A DNA stretch of 32,328 nt from Prolixibacteraceae bacterium. GTDB lineage: Bacteria > Bacteroidota > Bacteroidia > Bacteroidales > Prolixibacteraceae. The translations under genes and the position numbers were made by a program. The stretch's first letter is position 1. Each line of letters opens with the position of its first letter. Of the stretch, positions 23,548 through 31,914 are shown piece by piece. The stretch covers positions 1 to 32,328 of the forward strand of contig JAJUGS010000010.1 of NCBI GenBank assembly GCA_029265875.1, given 5' to 3'. The notes beneath the pieces were generated by a model. It saw nothing but the letters and a program-made list of their open reading frames with translations. It ran no database searches and had not been told where the DNA came from.

Positions 23548-23694
23548 GATTAACGAATGAAGAATGATGATTAACGAATGAAGAATGATGATTAACGATT
23601 GAAGAATGGTGATTAATGAATGAAGAATGGTGATTAATGAATGAAGAATGGTGATTAACGATTGAAGAATGGTGATTAACGATTGAAGAACCTG
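23548..23694. repeat. Seven tandem copies of a 21-bp repeat
   Basis: The unit is GATTAACGAATGAAGAATGAT. Copies 1 and 2 are identical, copies 3 and 6 read GATTAACGATTGAAGAATGGT, copies 4 and 5 read GATTAATGAATGAAGAATGGT, and copy 7 decays after 16 bases. Two subtypes arranged in mirrored order (3-4-5-6) point to unit duplication. There are no spacers, so this is not CRISPR. The period equals two turns of DNA. The array fills the space between the helicase promoter and the editing-domain gene. Confidence 0.95.
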
Positions 23695-23715: not shown

Positions 23716-24129
23716 TTACAACGACGCCCAGATTCTTGCCAGCGAATACCCCGGAGCTTTTATTTCGAGGTCGAGAAAATAGCCAAAGGGAGTTTGTGCA
23801 GTGGTGTAACCTGCATTCTGTAAACGTTTTTCGGCCAGGTTAAAAATTTCGCGGGTAAACTCAACCGAAGCTTTTGATTCGGAAAGATGGGCAAACGAAT
23901 GAAGAATGAGGCTGTTGCAGTTATTTTTCCGGGCGGTCCATTTCAGGTGGTTGACCAGTTTTTTTTCGCGGCTGGCAACGTCGAACTGTTCGTCGGCCTC
24001 TTCAACCTGGATAAATGCAAGAATGCTGTTGGCGAAAGTTTTTCCTTCGGTAATTTCTTCGGCTGAATCAAGGTTTCGGGTATTTGGGCGGTAACTGAAT
24101 TCATCAACAAACATCACCAATACTTTCAT
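23716..24129 (-). CDS. Free-standing threonyl-tRNA synthetase editing domain protein
   Basis: This 137-residue protein matches the archaeal threonyl-tRNA synthetase editing domain (tRNA-Thr_ED, with a D-aminoacyl-tRNA deacylase fold) over its whole length. In archaea that domain removes serine wrongly attached to tRNA-Thr. Shared landmarks are the N-terminal strand MKVLVMFVDEFSY, AFIQVEEAD (38-46), LHSFAHLSES with H81 at the position of the active-site histidine, and TPFGYF (113-118) followed by APGYSLAR. The lysine that follows the PFGYY motif in Pyrococcus seems to be Leu119 here, so activity is uncertain. Its ATG overlaps the stop codon of the haem-binding gene upstream (24126-24129). No synthetase is attached or adjacent. 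Confidence 0.82.
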   Translation of the reverse strand: MKVLVMFVDEFSYRPNTRNLDSAEEITEGKTFANSILAFIQVEEADEQFDVASREKKLVNHLKWTARKNNCNSLILHSFAHLSESKASVEFTREIFNLAEKRLQNAGYTTAQTPFGYFLDLEIKAPGYSLARIWASL

Positions 24130-24596
24130 TCTTCCGGCTGGTTCATCAGTTCATCACTTTTTTTATCGATCCACTCAATTATTGCTTTTTGGGTTTCTTT
24201 GTCCAGTTTTGCTTCGCGATGCATCATTACATAAGGTTTCAAGGGCATGGTTCCGCGCTCAATTTCCTGTTTCATATCTTCCAGCGCTTTTATTTTATCG
24301 TAATCATCCAGCGTCTTCCATTCCGAAAGATTCAGTTCTTTTTTGCCATTGGTGATATGTTGGTTGATCATCCACGAAACCGGGGAAATTTTATGGTACC
24401 ACAGGTACTTTGTGTTGTTGGAATGACAATCGAGACAGGCATTTTGAAAAGCTTCCTTAACTTCAGATGGCATATTTTCGGAATTGATAACCAGGTTTTC
24501 CGTGCTTTCTGAAATATTTTTTTCAGGCTGAAAAAACTGGGTAACAACAAAAGCGACAAACAATGCTGCGGCGGAAATGATGATCAGCTTCTTCAT
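24126..24596 (-). CDS. Haem-binding domain protein (cytochrome c-like, periplasmic)
   Basis: This 156-residue protein has an N-terminal hydrophobic segment (5-20) that is a signal peptide or anchor. It is followed by a single haem c site in NACLDCHSNNTKYLWYHK, the signature of the Haem_bd family. The partner motif GTMPLKPYVMMH supplies a likely methionine axial ligand, and LDKETQKAIIEWID is the usual C-terminal helix. The family is small and its role is mostly unknown, probably electron transfer in the periplasm. It is followed with overlapping stop and start by the editing-domain gene. A strong hairpin separates it from the second haem protein upstream. Confidence 0.85.
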   Translation of the reverse strand: MKKLIIISAAALFVAFVVTQFFQPEKNISESTENLVINSENMPSEVKEAFQNACLDCHSNNTKYLWYHKISPVSWMINQHITNGKKELNLSEWKTLDDYDKIKALEDMKQEIERGTMPLKPYVMMHREAKLDKETQKAIIEWIDKKSDELMNQPEE

Positions 24597-24671: not shown

Positions 24672-25061
24672 TTATTTTTTCATCAGGGCTTTGCCTTCAC
24701 TTTTTGCCCAGTCGATCAGGATTTTCTTTTCTGCATCCGTTAATTTTTTGTCGGGGAATTTTTCAAGGAATTTTGCCGGTGGCATTTCGTTTTCCTCAAC
24801 GGTTTCGGCAATTTCGCCCAACGCGTGGATCATCTCTTTTTTGCCCAGCGTATCAAATGTTTTCAGGTCGAGTTTTTCCTTGGCCTTGTCGTTCTTCGAG
24901 TCGGTGTTGTGGCAGCCAAAACATGATTTTTCAATCACCGCCTTAACATTGTCGGGCATCACAGGGGCTTTTGTTTCGGTAGGGTTAACCGACGCTTTCA
25001 GCCAACCTGCCGAAACAAATAATGCAAACAGTGTGATAACAAAGTGTTTTTTTCTGATCAT
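24672..25061 (-). CDS. Small haem-binding domain protein (cytochrome c-like, secreted)
   Basis: The 129-residue protein has a clear signal peptide (MIRKKHFVITLFALFVSAG, cut near residue 24) and one haem c site in SCFGCHNTDS. ENEMPPAKFLEKFPDKKLTDAEKKILIDW follows, with a probable methionine ligand in EMPP and the C-terminal helix of the Haem_bd family. It appears related to the next gene downstream (24126-24596), the pair probably coming from an old duplication. A periplasmic electron carrier role is likely but unproven. The DsbD-type protein at 10708 could supply the reductant needed to attach haem. Confidence 0.82.
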   Translation of the reverse strand: MIRKKHFVITLFALFVSAGWLKASVNPTETKAPVMPDNVKAVIEKSCFGCHNTDSKNDKAKEKLDLKTFDTLGKKEMIHALGEIAETVEENEMPPAKFLEKFPDKKLTDAEKKILIDWAKSEGKALMKK

Positions 25062-25211: not shown

Positions 25212-27407
25212 ATGAACCGATTATATTCAGGGATTTTGATATTGATACTCATTTTGGCAACAGGGCAAATTAGTGCCCAGTTATCAAAAATGGGGGTTCC
25301 GTTGAAAATAAAACAGTTAAAAAGTTCACGTGGCGGGAAAGTCGAAATGCCCTCATTTCTTTCGTATTTCAGCAGCGAAGTGCAAACCGTGCAGGATGAA
25401 AAGCAACTGAAACCATTCAAATTTGCTCATGGTTACCCGGTGAACCTGACAACCGGGAATTCTGGAGAATGGTTTTCTGCAGCCGATTCAGAAGATATGG
25501 CTGTGTGGCGGTTAACCATAAAATCGGCGGGTGCCTATTCGCTCAATCTTGTTTTTGATGATTTTGAGATACCAGAAAACGCCCGCTTATTTGTTTACAG
25601 CGAAACAGAAGAATATCTTTTAGGTGCTTTTACACAAGATAACAATTCAGCATCACGAAAATTTGCCATTTCCCCGGTTGCGGGCGATGAGATTACCGTA
25701 CAATACGAAGTACCGGAAAAACTCAGTCATGTCGATCCTTTCAGGATTATACAGGTGAATCACGATTATGTGGGAATTTTAAAGTCGGGCACTCGCCGGC
25801 CAATGGGCAAAACAGCAGGCTCGTGCAATATTGATATTAATTGTGATGCCTGGGGCAGTTGGGAAGAACCTAAAAATTCAGTGGTGCGCATCATTATTAA
25901 TAAACCGGGAGGATCGGAAATCTGCACTGGTGTGCTTGTAAATAACACAGCCGAAAATCAAAAGCCGTATGTTTTATCGGCGGCACACTGTTTCGACAAG
26001 TGGAGCTATGCTGAAACCTCTGTTTTTACATTTAATTACGAAAGTCCGTTTTGTAAACCTTTAGATGGCGATCCATCCAATTCAATTTCAGGTGCTGCCA
26101 TGAAAGCTCAGTTCGACAGTCTTGATTTTGCCCTGGTGCTGCTGAATACGGTTCCGCCTCCTGAGTACCGTCCGTATTATGCAGGTTGGAACAGAATCTC
26201 TGAAGTTTCCGAATCATCTGTTAGCATTCATCATCCACAGGGCGATATTAAAAAGCTGGCCAACGACAATGATGCTTCGGTAATTGCCACATTCGACTCG
26301 CCATACGTAAAAAACGGGCATCTCAGGATCTTAAAATGGGAAGGCGGTACTACCGAACAGGGTTCTTCAGGAGGCCCGTTGTTCGATCAGAATAAACTGT
26401 TAAAGGGAACTTTAACCGGCGGTTCGGCGGTTTGTGGAAAATCGGTGGATGATTATTTTGCCAGGCTGGCACTTGCCTGGGATTACAAAAACGATTCAAC
26501 GAAACAGTTAAAATACTGGCTCGACCCTTTAAAAACAAACCCCGCGACCCTGCAGGGAAAACAGTTTTATACGGAAGCAGATTTATGCGGGGCGTTTACC
26601 AATCTGACAGATATTGACTCTTATGCACTTGTTCCAATAAAAAACGGGACCGAATTTGCCGGTTATTGGGGTGGTTCAAACAGCGTTGGGATTACTGAAA
26701 TAACTGAAAAATTCAAGACCGAGGCAAATCTGCATTTAAAAGGAATATCGCTTGGAGTGGGCCGTATTAAAAACGCTATAAAAAGCCAGAACAGCGAGAT
26801 TACCATCAAAATTTATAATGGCACTTCGGTACCCGGGCAACCCATTTATTCGCAAAGCGTGAAAACTTCGGAATTGGCTCCTGATGCCATGAATTATATC
26901 CCGTTTACAAAAGTTGTAAAACCCGGAACCGAGTTTTTTGCCGGTTTCGAGATTTCAAATGTTGCTGCACCCGATTCTTTTGCCATTTACCAGTCATTAA
27001 AAGCATCCACCCAAACTAACAGCTGTTTTATCAGGAAGAATAATCAATGGAATGCTTTTTCCAGCCTGAACGCCGAAAAAAAAACCATGTCGAACATTAT
27101 CGAACTGGTTGCCTGCAATATCAACAATTTCAATACCGATACACCCAGGGTTGAAAATCCGTTAGATATTGTGGTGTTCCCGAATCCTGTCACTTCAACA
27201 TTCACGGTTGAAGCTGGTAAAGAAATTACTGCACAGCAAATAAAAGTATATAATGTCGCAGGACAATTGTGCACCTGCAAAATCACCCCAATCGGCGACA
27301 GAAAATTAAATGTGGATATGAGAGGCAATGTTTCGGGGATCTATTTTGTACATTATAACAACGGCAACAGTTTCATTACCAAAAAGATTTCATTTGTTCA
27401 GTGGTGA
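25212..27407 (+). CDS. Secreted lysyl-endopeptidase-like serine protease with T9SS type A sorting domain
   Basis: This is a 731-residue exported protease. A signal peptide (1-22, ending in SAQ) is followed by an N-terminal propeptide-like region to about 200. The trypsin-fold domain runs from about 204 to 440. Catalytic residues are H259 (LSAAHC), D305 (SLDFALVLLN) and S386 (EQGSSGGPL). CNIDINC, LVNNTAENQ, AGWNR and the IHHPQGD loop resemble Achromobacter lysyl endopeptidase (Lys-C), though lysine preference is not proven here. A beta-rich module (about 450-640) comes next. The end is a T9SS sorting domain with FPNPVTSTFTV and SGIYFVHYNNG, which sends the protein through the outer membrane. 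Mature activity probably needs removal of the N-terminal part. Confidence 0.9.
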   Translation: MNRLYSGILILILILATGQISAQLSKMGVPLKIKQLKSSRGGKVEMPSFLSYFSSEVQTVQDEKQLKPFKFAHGYPVNLTTGNSGEWFSAADSEDMAVWRLTIKSAGAYSLNLVFDDFEIPENARLFVYSETEEYLLGAFTQDNNSASRKFAISPVAGDEITVQYEVPEKLSHVDPFRIIQVNHDYVGILKSGTRRPMGKTAGSCNIDINCDAWGSWEEPKNSVVRIIINKPGGSEICTGVLVNNTAENQKPYVLSAAHCFDKWSYAETSVFTFNYESPFCKPLDGDPSNSISGAAMKAQFDSLDFALVLLNTVPPPEYRPYYAGWNRISEVSESSVSIHHPQGDIKKLANDNDASVIATFDSPYVKNGHLRILKWEGGTTEQGSSGGPLFDQNKLLKGTLTGGSAVCGKSVDDYFARLALAWDYKNDSTKQLKYWLDPLKTNPATLQGKQFYTEADLCGAFTNLTDIDSYALVPIKNGTEFAGYWGGSNSVGITEITEKFKTEANLHLKGISLGVGRIKNAIKSQNSEITIKIYNGTSVPGQPIYSQSVKTSELAPDAMNYIPFTKVVKPGTEFFAGFEISNVAAPDSFAIYQSLKASTQTNSCFIRKNNQWNAFSSLNAEKKTMSNIIELVACNINNFNTDTPRVENPLDIVVFPNPVTSTFTVEAGKEITAQQIKVYNVAGQLCTCKITPIGDRKLNVDMRGNVSGIYFVHYNNGNSFITKKISFVQW

Positions 27408-27417
27408 TCAGCATTGC

Positions 27418-28161
27418 TTATCTCGTTAATTTAAGCAACCCATTGATGATCGTTAACGGGTGAGGCGGATTGCCTGGGATGTACAGATCGATTTTTACAT
27501 CTTTCAGAATACTGCGTTCGAGTGCTGCGCTGTCGGCAAAAATGCCACCGCTGATTGCATCGACTCCGCACAAGATAAAGAGTTTGGGTGATGGAATGGC
27601 TTCCCAGGTAGTTTTCAGTGCTTCGGCCATGTTTTCCGAAATGGGGCCGGTAACCACCACGCCATCAGCATATCGCGGTGAAGCCACAAATTCAATTCCA
27701 TACCTGCCCATATCAAAATTGGCATTTCCACAGGCGTTCAGTTCAAACTCACACGAATTGTCGCCACCTGCCGAAACCTGCCTTAATTTCAGTGATTTGC
27801 CAAAAACTGTTTTAATTTTTGGGTCGATCAAAGTCTGGTCCAGCTCAATATTTTTTTTCTCACCCTCAGAAATAATAAGGTTTTCGAGCTTGTTTGTACT
27901 GATTTTATGGTCGTTTGTGAAAGTGATTTTTTCAGGAAAACGAAAAGCACATTCGCCGCAGAAGTTGCATTTTGCAAGGTTAATTCTGACAGGATTTGCC
28001 GAAATGGCATTTAACGGGCAGCAACTCACCAGTGCATTTTCATCCACTTTTAGGGAACTGATTTCCGTCCGTCCGCGAAAAGGTGCCGGAACTTCGGCTT
28101 TTGTGGGATCAGTGATAAATTGTTTGCCGTTGTGTTTTATGATTTTAATTTCCTGTAACAT
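27418..28161 (-). CDS. HyfI/NuoB-like small subunit fused to a one-cluster ferredoxin domain (Ehr-type complex)
   Basis: This 247-residue protein joins a ferredoxin-like part (about 40-80) to a domain related to group 4 hydrogenase small subunits and NuoB (about 120-247). The ferredoxin part has C48 (CCPLNAI) and C65, C68, C71 (CNFCGEC), which is one cluster's worth of ligands. The position of the next CP cysteine is F75. In the NuoB-like domain the proximal-cluster cysteines, by comparison with HycG, read D134, C137, D201 and N231 (PGNPP instead of PGCPP). That cluster is therefore probably absent. The rest of the fold is kept (SPRYADGVVVTGPIS, SGGIF). It is the last gene of the minus-strand operon, 10 bases after the large subunit. 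It probably accepts or passes electrons through its single ferredoxin cluster. Confidence 0.82.
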   Translation of the reverse strand: MLQEIKIIKHNGKQFITDPTKAEVPAPFRGRTEISSLKVDENALVSCCPLNAISANPVRINLAKCNFCGECAFRFPEKITFTNDHKISTNKLENLIISEGEKKNIELDQTLIDPKIKTVFGKSLKLRQVSAGGDNSCEFELNACGNANFDMGRYGIEFVASPRYADGVVVTGPISENMAEALKTTWEAIPSPKLFILCGVDAISGGIFADSAALERSILKDVKIDLYIPGNPPHPLTIINGLLKLTR

Positions 28162-28171
28162 CTTCAGTTTT

Positions 28172-29695
28172 TTAAAGGTCGAATCCGCAGTAACTTAAAT
28201 TGTAACTCTTATTGTTGATCGGAAAGTCGGAAATTTCAAGGTTTCGCAACGAAAGTTCCAGTGCTTTCCAGTTGTGAAACGATGGGTCCTTTATTTTGTA
28301 ATAAACCAGTTCCCCGTTTTTGCCCGTCACAGCGGTGTGGCAAATCTCACCGCGCCAGCCTTCCACCAGCGAAACGGCCAGTCTTCCGGGTTTCAGCGCA
28401 ATATCACTGACTGGTTTTGGAGAAGGATGGACAAATTCTTCGTTTTTTAATACTTCCCTGATCCAGAAAATGGATTGTTTTATCTCTTTCCGGCGCAGCA
28501 AAAAACGGGAGAAAACGTCACCTTTTGGCAAAACTATTGGGGTGTATGGATGTTTTACAAATGCTTTGGAAGGGTGGCTTTTCCGAACATCGCGCGGAAT
28601 ATTTGCCATTCGTGCAACCATCCCGACTGCCCCGATTTTCCGCATTTGTTGCTCGGTAACAGTTCCGATATCATCAAAACGGTTTTCAACACTGGGCAAA
28701 CGGTAAGTGAGGTGGGCCAGTTCAACAAATTGTTTTTCGTATTTATCGAGAGTTTGCAGAATCTGACTTTTGAGCTGATTTGTCAAAGGGTAGTGCGTTC
28801 CTCCTGTTCTGATCATTCCTTTTCCAAGCCGGTTTCCGCACCACGCCTGGGTTTGGTTGATGATTGCCGTGCGGAGAATTCCAAAAATACTGGCTCCGAG
28901 GTTGTAAGCCACGTCTGTGCAAAGTGCAGAAATATCGGCAGTGTGCACGGCAATGCGCTCCAGTTCCAGTGCGATTGAGCGTTCAATATCAAGCTGAGTG
29001 GCTGTTTCAATTCCGGCAAGCGATTCCATTATACCGGCAAAGGCCAGGCTGTGACCAACTGTCGTATCTCCCGCAACCGATTCGGCCACAATATTACGTT
29101 GCAGCAAAGTTTGTTTATCCAATAAAGTCTGTTCAACTCCGCGGTGTTGCCAGCCCAACTGTATTTCGAGGTGCAACACATTTTCGCCATTACAGATAAA
29201 CCTGAAATGCCCCGGTTCGATAATTCCGGCATGAACGGGACCAACGCCAACTTCGTGCAGTTCATTACTTTCGATGGAATAAAACGGATAATCGTTAATT
29301 TTTAGGTTCGTATCAGCGCGGTTATGCGCAAATCTGACCGGTTTCAGCCACGGATGCCCCGGAAAACCAACACCAAAGTTCTCGTGAATTTCGCGCTCGA
29401 AAATATGAAGTGCGTTGATTTGTGGTGTCAGCGATGCGAGTTCCTGTTCGACATTTTTCGGTAAAAAATGGGAGAGAATAAAAATATTTTGGGTGGAGTC
29501 GTTTGCAATGGCAGCTATAAATTTAAGTCCATCATCCTGGGGAAAAGCAAAATAGGTGACACAGTGATTTTCGTTAAGCGTCAGCAATTCAATTATTTCT
29601 TTGCTGAAATCCGCGTAATTTAAAACCGGGATCAAATCGGTTTCAATGGATTTGCAATTTTGAATTATACAATATTTTTTGTTTTCAGAAACCAT
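28172..29695 (-). CDS. HyfG/HycE-like large subunit without NiFe ligands (Ehr-type complex)
   Basis: This 507-residue protein fuses a NuoC-like part (about 1-115; HIFEREIHENFGVGFPGHPW is typical) with a NuoD/hydrogenase large-subunit part. Family landmarks are VGPVHAGIIEPGHFRF, LGWQHRGVEQTLL and ELERIAVHTADI. The first metal motif, ERVCGICGFAHS in E. coli HycE, reads ESVAGDTTVGHS here, so both cysteines become A208 and T211. The second, DPCxxC, reads DPSFHN, giving S472 and N475. No NiFe centre can be held in the usual way, so it is not a working hydrogenase. It could bind a quinone or another substrate in the vacated cavity, as NuoD does. It lies six bases after the antiporter-like subunit. 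Confidence 0.88.
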   Translation of the reverse strand: MVSENKKYCIIQNCKSIETDLIPVLNYADFSKEIIELLTLNENHCVTYFAFPQDDGLKFIAAIANDSTQNIFILSHFLPKNVEQELASLTPQINALHIFEREIHENFGVGFPGHPWLKPVRFAHNRADTNLKINDYPFYSIESNELHEVGVGPVHAGIIEPGHFRFICNGENVLHLEIQLGWQHRGVEQTLLDKQTLLQRNIVAESVAGDTTVGHSLAFAGIMESLAGIETATQLDIERSIALELERIAVHTADISALCTDVAYNLGASIFGILRTAIINQTQAWCGNRLGKGMIRTGGTHYPLTNQLKSQILQTLDKYEKQFVELAHLTYRLPSVENRFDDIGTVTEQQMRKIGAVGMVARMANIPRDVRKSHPSKAFVKHPYTPIVLPKGDVFSRFLLRRKEIKQSIFWIREVLKNEEFVHPSPKPVSDIALKPGRLAVSLVEGWRGEICHTAVTGKNGELVYYKIKDPSFHNWKALELSLRNLEISDFPINNKSYNLSYCGFDL

Positions 29696-29701
29696 GTGGC
29701 G

Positions 29702-31126
29702 TCAGTTTAAAAGTTGAATGGTCTGTTTGATCAGATCGGTTAAAATTGCTGGAGGATTGAATCCCATGTAAATTACCGCGAAAAACAGCACAAACTGCGA
29801 AACCGGTTCAAGGCGGTTGGCGAAAACGGCATCAGGTTTAAAATTCTCGGGGAGATCAGCAAAAAGCAGGTGCATGGTTTTTGAAATTATAAAATACATA
29901 ATAATAGTCATCATGATCAGAACCGCAACGGCAGTAACAATGAATCCCTCTGAAAAAAGCGCTTTGAAAATCATGAACTCGGTAATAAACAAACCCGATG
30001 GCGGAATGGCAGTTACAGAGATAATTCCCAATAAAAAGGCGAGCGCCCCGGTCGGATTCAACTTAAAGTAGGAACCGGTGTCTTTGATCCATCCGCTGTG
30101 AAAGAATGCCCGCACCTGTCCGAACTGAAAAAATAATCCGCCTTTTATAAACGAGTGAAAAACAAGGTGCAGCAATGCCGCGTAATACCCTGCTTTCCCT
30201 GCAGAAATGGTAATTAAAATAAGTGCAACATGTTCCATGCTGGAAAAGGCAAACATCCTTTTGTATCGTTTAATTCTGAATAACTGAATGGTTGCCAGCG
30301 AAATGCTGATTAACCCGGTAACCAGTAAAACGTTTTGTGCCCACGAATTCAGCGGGGTTTGATTGATAACTGTGTACACCCTGAAAATGGCTATGAAACC
30401 CGCATTGATCATGGCAGTTGAAAAAATGGCATTCACCGGCGACGGCGCAACTGTTTTGGCATCAATGGTTCCGGCGTAAAACGGGAAAACATTCAGCTTG
30501 GCGCTGTAACCGGTAAGTATCAGAACGAAAGCGGTTTTCAGAAAAAACGGGTCCATTTTCTGTGCGACCGATGCAAGATACGACACCGAAAGATTGGCGC
30601 CTTCGGGCGAAGTAGCCTGGGTTGCCAAAATCAGAATACCCAAAAATGCGATGGCAATTCCCACTGACGAAAGAAAAAGATATTTCCAGGCAGCTTCGAG
30701 CGGTGTTTCATACCGGTTGTGAAAAATCAGGAAGGTCATGCAGAGTGTGGTCGCTTCAATGCTGACCCACATCAACACAATATTTTCGGCAAAATAAACT
30801 GACGAAAGTGCCGTGGCCAGAATAATCATAATTGCAGCAAAACGGGTTTCGCTTTTTACGTCTTTTACATGCCTTTTGAAATAGAGATTGGAATGAAACA
30901 GCGTCGGGACCAGCAGGATGCTTAAAAGTGCATTCATCAGCACCGACAAGCTGTCGAACTGATAATAGACCGTATCGAAAGAATCCAGATTTTTGTAGGA
31001 ATAAACGGTTAACAGACAATGAAGGGCTACAAACAGTGTGCTTCCGACTGCCATGATGATTCTGTTAGCAAACAGAAAAATCAGCAGGCTCAAAACAAAC
31101 GCTATCCCGAAAAAAAGTAAAATCAT
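29702..31126 (-). CDS. HyfF/NuoN-like proton- or ion-translocating membrane subunit (Ehr-type complex)
   Basis: This 474-residue protein is almost entirely membrane helices (about 13-14) and belongs to the NuoL/M/N and Mrp antiporter family, closest to hydrogenase-4 subunit F. The key charged residues of the family are visible: Glu in WVSIEATTL, Lys in GYSAKLNVFPFY, and Lys in KRYKRMFAFSSMEHVALI. The conserved APSPVNAIFST segment is also present. It lacks the usual HxWLPDA stretch (FYAGTIDAKTVAPSP instead). It would form the ion channel arm of the complex. The leader upstream contains the palindromic element at 31153-31250, which separates it from the HyfE-like gene. Confidence 0.88.
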   Translation of the reverse strand: MILLFFGIAFVLSLLIFLFANRIIMAVGSTLFVALHCLLTVYSYKNLDSFDTVYYQFDSLSVLMNALLSILLVPTLFHSNLYFKRHVKDVKSETRFAAIMIILATALSSVYFAENIVLMWVSIEATTLCMTFLIFHNRYETPLEAAWKYLFLSSVGIAIAFLGILILATQATSPEGANLSVSYLASVAQKMDPFFLKTAFVLILTGYSAKLNVFPFYAGTIDAKTVAPSPVNAIFSTAMINAGFIAIFRVYTVINQTPLNSWAQNVLLVTGLISISLATIQLFRIKRYKRMFAFSSMEHVALILITISAGKAGYYAALLHLVFHSFIKGGLFFQFGQVRAFFHSGWIKDTGSYFKLNPTGALAFLLGIISVTAIPPSGLFITEFMIFKALFSEGFIVTAVAVLIMMTIIMYFIISKTMHLLFADLPENFKPDAVFANRLEPVSQFVLFFAVIYMGFNPPAILTDLIKQTIQLLN

Positions 31127-31152
31127 AGTCTAATTTGTAATTAACGTTTTAT

Positions 31153-31250
31153 TACGCATCACCCCCTGCCCCCTCAAGGGGGTAATTGTTTCAATGTTTT
31201 TAGTGCGTATTTTAACGGTAAATCTCCCCATGAGGGGATAAAGGGGTGAT
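31153..31250. repeat. Palindromic REP-like element inside the Ehr-type operon
   Basis: ATCACCCC (31158-31165) pairs with GGGGTGAT (31243-31250). Inside it lie two GC-rich hairpins, CCCCC-TCAA-GGGGG (31169-31182) and TCCCC-ATGA-GGGGA (31225-31238), giving a three-way shape. TACGCA (31153) can also pair with TGCGTA (31204). It stands out by base composition from the AT-rich flanks. The form suggests a dispersed intergenic palindrome; a role as attenuator is possible. Confidence 0.65.
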
Positions 31251-31284
31251 AAATAGCTATACATTAATGTTTTATTCATCTCAC

Positions 31285-31914
31285 TTAATCTTTTAACTGG
31301 CTCAGTTTACTGGCCGAAATTGTATCAAAAGTATCCTTCACCTTGTTCATAAAAACACCGATTACCAACACTGCAATCAACACGTCTAACAAAACCGCCA
31401 GGCTCACAAGAAATGGCATTTCGCCACCAACCGCAAGCGACAGCAAAAAAGCGCCGTTTTCAATAATGAGAAAACCAACGAGGTGACTGAAAATATTTTT
31501 ATGGATGATGATGAAATACATTCCTCCTATCACGGTTGCCAGCGCCACGGTAAAAAATCGTAACTGAATCACTTCGTTGTTGATGGTGTAGCTCATCAGA
31601 AAACATCCGATCAGAACCGCTGAAATAATGATTAATGAATAAAAAACGGGCACTTTGCTTTCGTGGACCCTTTTTAACTGGTTTTGATGACGCAGCCGGT
31701 TCAGAAACCAGGGAATTATAATTGCCTTGACAATCAAAGTTTCAAGCAGAATTACAATCAGTCCGAGGAGTTGAATATGAATGAGGTTGTTAAAGGCAAT
31801 TCCAAAAAGTAAAGTTCCCTGAATGGCAAGCAACCAGATAAAATTCGATACTCTTTCGGAAAGGAAAAAGTACACGAGGGTTGCGGCGAACAAAACAATC
31901 AGAACAATAACCAT
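31285..31914 (-). CDS. HyfE-like membrane subunit (hydrogenase-4 component E / NuoK-MrpC type)
   Basis: This 209-residue protein has about six membrane helices and resembles hydrogenase-4 component E, whose C-terminal half is related to NuoK and MrpC. The family pattern includes LIVILLETLIVKAIIIPWFL, the conserved glutamate in GFLIIENGAFLLSL, and VLLDVLIAVLVIGVFMNK near the end. It would join the channel arm of the complex. It starts two bases after the HyfC-like stop codon (TGA-T-ATG), so the two are translated from one message. A gap of 158 bases with a palindromic element follows before the HyfF-like gene. Confidence 0.87.
   Translation of the reverse strand: MVIVLIVLFAATLVYFFLSERVSNFIWLLAIQGTLLFGIAFNNLIHIQLLGLIVILLETLIVKAIIIPWFLNRLRHQNQLKRVHESKVPVFYSLIIISAVLIGCFLMSYTINNEVIQLRFFTVALATVIGGMYFIIIHKNIFSHLVGFLIIENGAFLLSLAVGGEMPFLVSLAVLLDVLIAVLVIGVFMNKVKDTFDTISASKLSQLKD

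Follow-up and report, generated by a model that had tools for sequence, protein, structure and literature searches.

Why would a bacterium whose threonyl-tRNA synthetase (ThrRS) has an intact editing site of its own also encode a separate protein that corresponds to the ThrRS editing domain of archaea? The question is raised by an open reading frame (ORF) in a 32,328-nucleotide stretch of a contig (the window) from a genome that places with the Prolixibacteraceae, the nearest named relatives among the matches listed being Draconibacterium, Maribellus, and Mariniphaga. The ORF (24129..23716, minus strand) opens with ATG, closes with TAA, and encodes 137 amino acids. In the profile search, residues 1-135 aligned to positions 1-135 of 137 of PF08915 with an E value of 2.9e-32 and a score of 112 bits (cut-off, 30.2), and this was the single PF08915 match in the host genome. 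Lower-scoring NCBIfam matches were to PRK03991 (archaeal ThrRS) and PRK14938 (Ser-tRNA(Thr) hydrolase), and a PDB sequence search returned archaeal ThrRS editing domains, all other matches being spurious and partial. An AlphaFold2 model computed from 94 family members (mean pLDDT, 93) is predicted to adopt the archaeal editing-domain fold, with TM scores of 0.93 to 0.95 to the Pyrococcus abyssi domain (1y2q/4s0j), 0.91 to 0.92 to the M. jannaschii domain, and 0.83 to the A. pernix domain, versus about 0.6 to 0.7 to D-aminoacyl-tRNA deacylases (DTDs). The ORF is not a chance reading frame, given its 129 distinct homologues, the confidence of the model, and a median dN/dS of 0.09 over 39 close pairs, which indicates purifying selection. 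Profile and fold thus confirm the protein as a member of PF08915. An earlier note made from the letters of the window had proposed a free-standing archaeal-type ThrRS editing domain in Bacteroidota, to be checked by a search against PF08915 and by structural comparison with the Pyrococcus domain, and both checks bear it out.

Features of the editing-domain locus, with P. abyssi (Pab) equivalents of the pocket residues
Feature	Coordinates	Strand	Basis
Free-standing tRNA-Thr_ED (PF08915) protein, 137 aa	23716..24129	-	PF08915 E=2.9e-32; AF2 model
Motif H77-S78-F79-A80-H81-L82 = Pab Y79-P80-F81-A82-H83-L84	23884..23901	-	alignment
F115-G116 = Pab Phe117-Gly118, A76 adenine-stacking pocket, kept	23782..23787	-	alignment
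F118-L119 = Pab Tyr120-Lys121, changed	23773..23778	-	alignment
R132 = Pab Glu134, charge reversed	23734..23736	-	alignment
Haem_bd (PF14376) CxxCH protein, 156 aa, upstream	24126..24596	-	PF14376 E=1.9e-42
Second small Haem_bd CxxCH protein, upstream	24672..25061	-	PF14376 E=3e-16

The gene is a normal, conserved part of the chromosome in the GTDB-order Bacteroidales. A PF08915 protein occurs in 87 of 140 genomes of the host's family and in 53 of 295 genomes of the order, and the fetched relatives are single-domain proteins of about 132 to 146 residues; more than 522 loci of the family were found in named genomes. In the rest of the phylum the domain appears in about one per several hundred genomes. 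A phylum sample of 396 genomes yielded the host genome, one true match (genome G439), and one false match. The G439 copy (locus L062, G439:C22:69600-70007) is the lone true member in another class, of which 197 genomes were searched; the genome measures 2.4 Mb, and the copy likely reflects a transfer or a contaminating contig. The second PF08915 match outside the order, in G578, was rejected by eye as a YggS-like protein. Mariniphaga sediminis (G108, loci L071 and L072) has two PF08915 genes on separate contigs, with equal score and identity to the query, which represent either a recent duplication or an assembly artefact. Carriage as mobile-element cargo is ruled out, since searches for the bacterial family in phages, plasmids, and viral contigs found nothing; the P. 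abyssi domain used as a query likewise had no match in plasmids and viral contigs.

Free-standing editing enzymes are known in bacteria and include the INS, AlaX, and DTD groups. We found no description of a bacterial free-standing PF08915 family in the open-licence literature. The protein resembles the editing domain at the N terminus of archaeal ThrRS (P. abyssi and M. jannaschii) in its fold (TM, 0.91 to 0.95), in the full-length profile match, and in the A76-stacking Phe, the Gly, and the FAHL motif with the equivalent of His83. It differs in being free-standing, bacterial, and only 23 to 26% identical, and in that Pro80, Tyr120, Lys121, and Glu134 are all replaced. It also resembles ThrRS-ed of the archaeal ThrRS-ed/ThrRS-2 systems (A. 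pernix and S. solfataricus), whose DTD-like editing domain is separate from the synthetase and works in trans; however, ThrRS-ed includes an anticodon-binding domain and accompanies a catalytic ThrRS without editing, whereas the bacterial protein is a single domain of 137 residues and the host ThrRS has an editing site of its own, its N2 motifs being intact. PF08915 proteins that are not part of ThrRS have also been described: standalone domains near SepCysS genes in archaea and, in a small number of bacteria, fusions to SepRS (PMC5424206, PMC8762117). The SepRS fusions keep a complete serine-recognition motif (PMC8762117), whereas that of the free-standing family is changed. An association with SepCysS is ruled out, as no match over the cut-off was found in the host genome and none among the recurrent neighbours. 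Bacterial DTD (PF02580) and animal ATD are free-standing deacylases with the same general fold (TM, about 0.6 to 0.7), and DTD too has a hydrophobic residue at the Lys121 position. Unlike DTD, the protein has HSFAHL and PGxSLAR in place of SQFTL and Gly-cisPro, it gave no match to the PF02580 profile, and its host has a DTD of its own.

Residues were mapped by alignment to wild-type P. abyssi (1y2q), and conservation was read over 129 distinct sequences, with region L248 left out. Loci from the named-genome listing were seeded with the motif, but the set also takes in low-scoring profile matches that were fetched on purpose, so the invariance of the pocket is not merely an artefact of seeding. 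In the P. abyssi domain, the seven side chains within 6 Å of the scissile bond are Pro80, Phe81, Ala82, His83, Tyr120, Lys121, and Glu134 of the other subunit (PMC4491819), and Phe117 stacks on the adenine (PMC3845328). The equivalents of Phe81, Ala82, and His83 (F79, A80, and H81) are kept in all 129 sequences, as is G116, and position 115 is Phe in 127 and Tyr in 2. The bacterial family thus has the adenine-stacking Phe, the Gly, and the His83 equivalent that mark Ser-tRNA-Thr editors, and the survival of the A76 pocket suggests that a charged tRNA would still be bound by its 3′ end.

The remainder of the pocket has changed. S78 replaces Pro80 in all 129 sequences. The Tyr120 and Glu134 that mark Ser-tRNA-Thr editors are Phe118 and Arg132 in 129 of 129, and Lys121, a further mark of such editors, is Leu (126) or Met (3) throughout. 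A new residue, Asp120, is present in 121 of 129, and outside the pocket K63, W64, K68, N69, and H77 (in place of Tyr79) are invariant, with K86 in 127. The earlier note had spotted the loss of the expected lysine at Leu119, which is real and fixed as Leu or Met across the family, although it is one of four changes in all, the others being Ser78, Phe118, and Arg132. Tyr120 and Glu134 are the only amino-acid-pocket side chains and are completely conserved in archaea, where Glu134 reaches across the dimer to grip the substrate's α-amino group in P. abyssi and M. jannaschii; P. abyssi and A. pernix can nonetheless tell Ser from Thr without either side chain, and Ser/Thr specificity in archaea is set by main-chain atoms (PMC4491819). 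Lys121 positions the catalytic water, and its change to Met severely impairs three archaeal domains, whereas DTD functions with Met at this position (PMC4491819). In M. jannaschii, the Glu135-to-Ala change abolished activity. Nature has here run an experiment of its own on a domain said to work without side chains: Tyr120, Lys121, and Glu134, the pocket side chains that had been probed by mutation, have been replaced, and the result has been kept across an order.

Loss of the Lys together with reversal of the Glu to Arg amounts to a real change in pocket chemistry, and Ser-tRNA-Thr activity cannot be assumed with both positions altered. The changed activity suggested in the earlier note is therefore more plausible than it had claimed, as two further substrate-contacting residues, the equivalents of Tyr120 and Glu134, are replaced as well. 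Loss of these two need not kill the enzyme, since their side chains are dispensable in P. abyssi, and we conclude that the protein probably acts on mischarged tRNAs, with a specificity that differs from the archaeal one. Because the pocket lacks part of the signature of a Ser-tRNA-Thr editor, we do not file the protein as one; of the earlier proposal of Ser-tRNA-Thr proofreading in trans, trans-editing of mischarged tRNA stands as the best reading.

The nature of the replacements invites two other readings. Since Arg132 stands where Glu binds the α-amino group, the substrate might be one whose amino group is blocked or whose side chain is acidic: either an N-acyl-aminoacyl-tRNA or a tRNA with U at the discriminator position (U73) that is charged with an acidic or unusual amino acid. 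The fixation of this Arg, with the new Asp120 and the invariant Ser78 nearby, is consistent with such a substrate, but no bacterial pool of a U73 tRNA charged in this way is known and Arg132 may simply pair with Asp120, and we regard this reading as improbable. Alternatively, the domain may have left translation altogether and become a binding or signalling protein that keeps the adenosine pocket after loss of the deacylase; the lost Lys121, the reversed Glu134, and the lack of a link to translation genes would fit. This is the least likely of the readings considered here, given that the A76 pocket, the FAH motif, and the basic K63, K68, and K86 have all been kept.

The editing repertoire of the host limits the role further. 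Both N2 editing motifs of the host ThrRS are present (WHSSAH and FTDLCRGPH), and the HxxxH and CxGPH motifs are intact in each of 30 further genomes, of which 22 have the free domain and 8 lack it (two have CKGPH or CYGPH instead of CRGPH). The host also keeps AlaRS and a canonical DTD, and DTD occurs in 130 of 140 genomes of the family. The free domain therefore adds an activity and replaces none; roles as a stand-in for lost ThrRS editing or for DTD are both ruled out. With the host ThrRS site intact, no need for a further editor is apparent.

One such need could be oxidative. Catalysis in the editing-domain fold is by the 2′-OH of the tRNA. Cys is not conserved in the free domain (0 to 3 per protein, and no Cys in any invariant column), which makes a back-up resistant to oxidants a reasonable rival: a plain Ser-tRNA-Thr trans-editor, its pocket changes neutral to the substrate, standing in for an oxidation-sensitive ThrRS. 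The host ThrRS has the CRGPH Cys/His site, in E. coli, H2O2 or air oxidises the editing Cys of ThrRS and proofreading is lost (PMC4041444), and in archaea Ser/Thr specificity is set by main-chain atoms. However, four positions changed together and fixed in 129 of 129 sequences are not neutral drift, and the near loss of Ser editing on Lys121-to-Met change in three archaeal enzymes (PMC4491819) also speaks against it, which leaves this rival unlikely. The link to oxidative stress drawn in the earlier note is conceivable on this ground, by way of the oxidisable ThrRS Cys, and not on that of the haem gene from which it was drawn (see below).

The discriminator base gives an indication of the target. 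In archaea the domain apparently depends on the U73 that tRNA-Thr carries, and bacterial tRNA-Thr has A73 or U73 (PMC11295145). In the host, all three tRNA-Thr genes and the tRNA-Gly and tRNA-Cys genes found have U73, and tRNA-Ser has G73. Across 22 Bacteroidota genomes plus the host, with host genes counted twice where two loci overlap, U73 was read in 44 of 44 tRNA-Thr and 22 of 22 tRNA-Gly genes, in genomes with and without the domain. The U73 of tRNA-Thr and the archaeal reliance on it make tRNA-Thr the most likely target. As a reason for retention of the gene, U73 is ruled out, because genomes without the gene have it too. An ATD-like action on Ala-tRNA-Thr with G4-U69 was set aside by inspection, as host tRNA-Thr show G4-C69 or A4-U69. 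In several loci (L181, L184, L185, and others) a recurrent Bacteroidota cluster, tRNA-Thr(TGT)-Tyr-Gly-Thr(GGT), was seen with tRNA-Trp about 1.3 kb further on; its host counterparts lie on separate contigs.

The same base bears on D-aminoacyl-tRNAs, whose clearance had also been suggested. Position 73 has to be a purine for bacterial DTD (PMC11295145), and U73 tRNAs are disfavoured by it (PMC6097841), so D-aminoacyl-tRNAs of the U73 type (tRNA-Thr, -Cys, and -Gly in the host) might fall to the free domain, which has Leu or Met where DTD has Met. This seems very unlikely and is not otherwise indicated: the enantioselective SQFTL and Gly-cisPro are absent, a canonical DTD is present, and the closest fold is that of the ThrRS domain, not DTD.

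The base may also create a hazard. Position 73 of tRNA-Gly is A in archaea and U in bacteria. Archaeal domains deacylate Gly-tRNA-Gly better than Ser-tRNA-Thr (PMC4491819), and a free archaeal domain would therefore be expected to drain the Gly-tRNA-Gly of a bacterium; a similar remark has been made to explain the SepRS fusion (PMC8762117). We therefore prefer, at a level of belief midway between acceptance and rejection, a trans-editor that provides second-line proofreading of mischarged tRNA-Thr through a rebuilt pocket that spares Gly-tRNA-Gly. Phe115, Gly116, and His81 would bind the 3′-terminal A76 of the charged tRNA, as in archaeal domains, and the 2′-OH of the tRNA would activate water to hydrolyse the ester, presuming that the protein is catalytically active. 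The pocket has been rebuilt in a fixed way (Pro80 to Ser78, Tyr120 to Phe118, Lys121 to Leu119, and Glu134 to Arg132), so that amino-acid specificity would differ from the archaeal one. The putative target, tRNA-Thr, would be recognised through U73 and receive a second line of proofreading when mischarged, while the fixed changes would spare U73 Gly-tRNA-Gly.

The end-to-end PF08915 match, a fold closer to the P. abyssi domain than to DTDs, the A76 pocket and FAH motif kept in 127 to 129 of 129 sequences, wide retention under purifying selection, the U73 of tRNA-Thr and tRNA-Gly beside the G73 of tRNA-Ser, the archaeal preference for Gly-tRNA-Gly, and the Met that DTD tolerates are all consistent with such a trans-editor. 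Against it stand the archaeal Lys121-to-Met and Glu135-to-Ala results and the phylum-wide U73 of tRNA-Thr, which leaves the patchy retention of the gene unexplained; nor does any conserved gene partner link it to ThrRS or tRNA genes. More tentatively, the family may represent an archaeal domain taken over as a free enzyme, its pocket rebuilt and Gly-tRNA-Gly spared, with a new specificity for U73 tRNAs beyond the reach of DTD. Because tRNA-Thr and tRNA-Gly share U73 here, the family bears on how the tRNA discriminator base and trans-editors have shaped each other.

The editing-domain gene starts within the last 4 bases (ATGA) of the Haem_bd gene upstream (24596..24126), start and stop codons overlapping; the earlier note spoke of coupling to a haem protein. 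Haem_bd lies directly upstream in 20 of 70 analysable loci, all from close relatives, with the second Haem_bd gene as second gene upstream in 18 of these 20, while 46 loci with more than 1.5 kb of upstream sequence have no Haem_bd. A general haem partnership is thus ruled out, and the pairing is a local operon without general meaning. The neighbour survey in other Bacteroidota proposed in the earlier note gave no general neighbour, and no conserved partner tying the domain to ThrRS or tRNA genes was found among the recurrent neighbours.

Directly downstream of the editing-domain gene (23548-23690) is a tandem array of 6.8 copies of a 21-bp unit (95% matches), which is missing from the near relative L064. 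A Complex-I-like cluster occupies 27418-31914 on the minus strand (Oxidored_q6, Complex1_49kDa with 30kDa, Proton_antipo_M, and Oxidored_q2-like); its large subunit, by eye, is without the paired CxxC motifs of NiFe hydrogenases, and the cluster may encode an energy-converting hydrogenase-related complex. A 731-residue trypsin-like protein with a type IX secretion sorting tail is encoded at 25212-27407 on the plus strand, and in 40 of 70 related loci a homologue lies immediately upstream in divergent orientation, which makes it a commoner neighbour of the editing domain than the haem gene.
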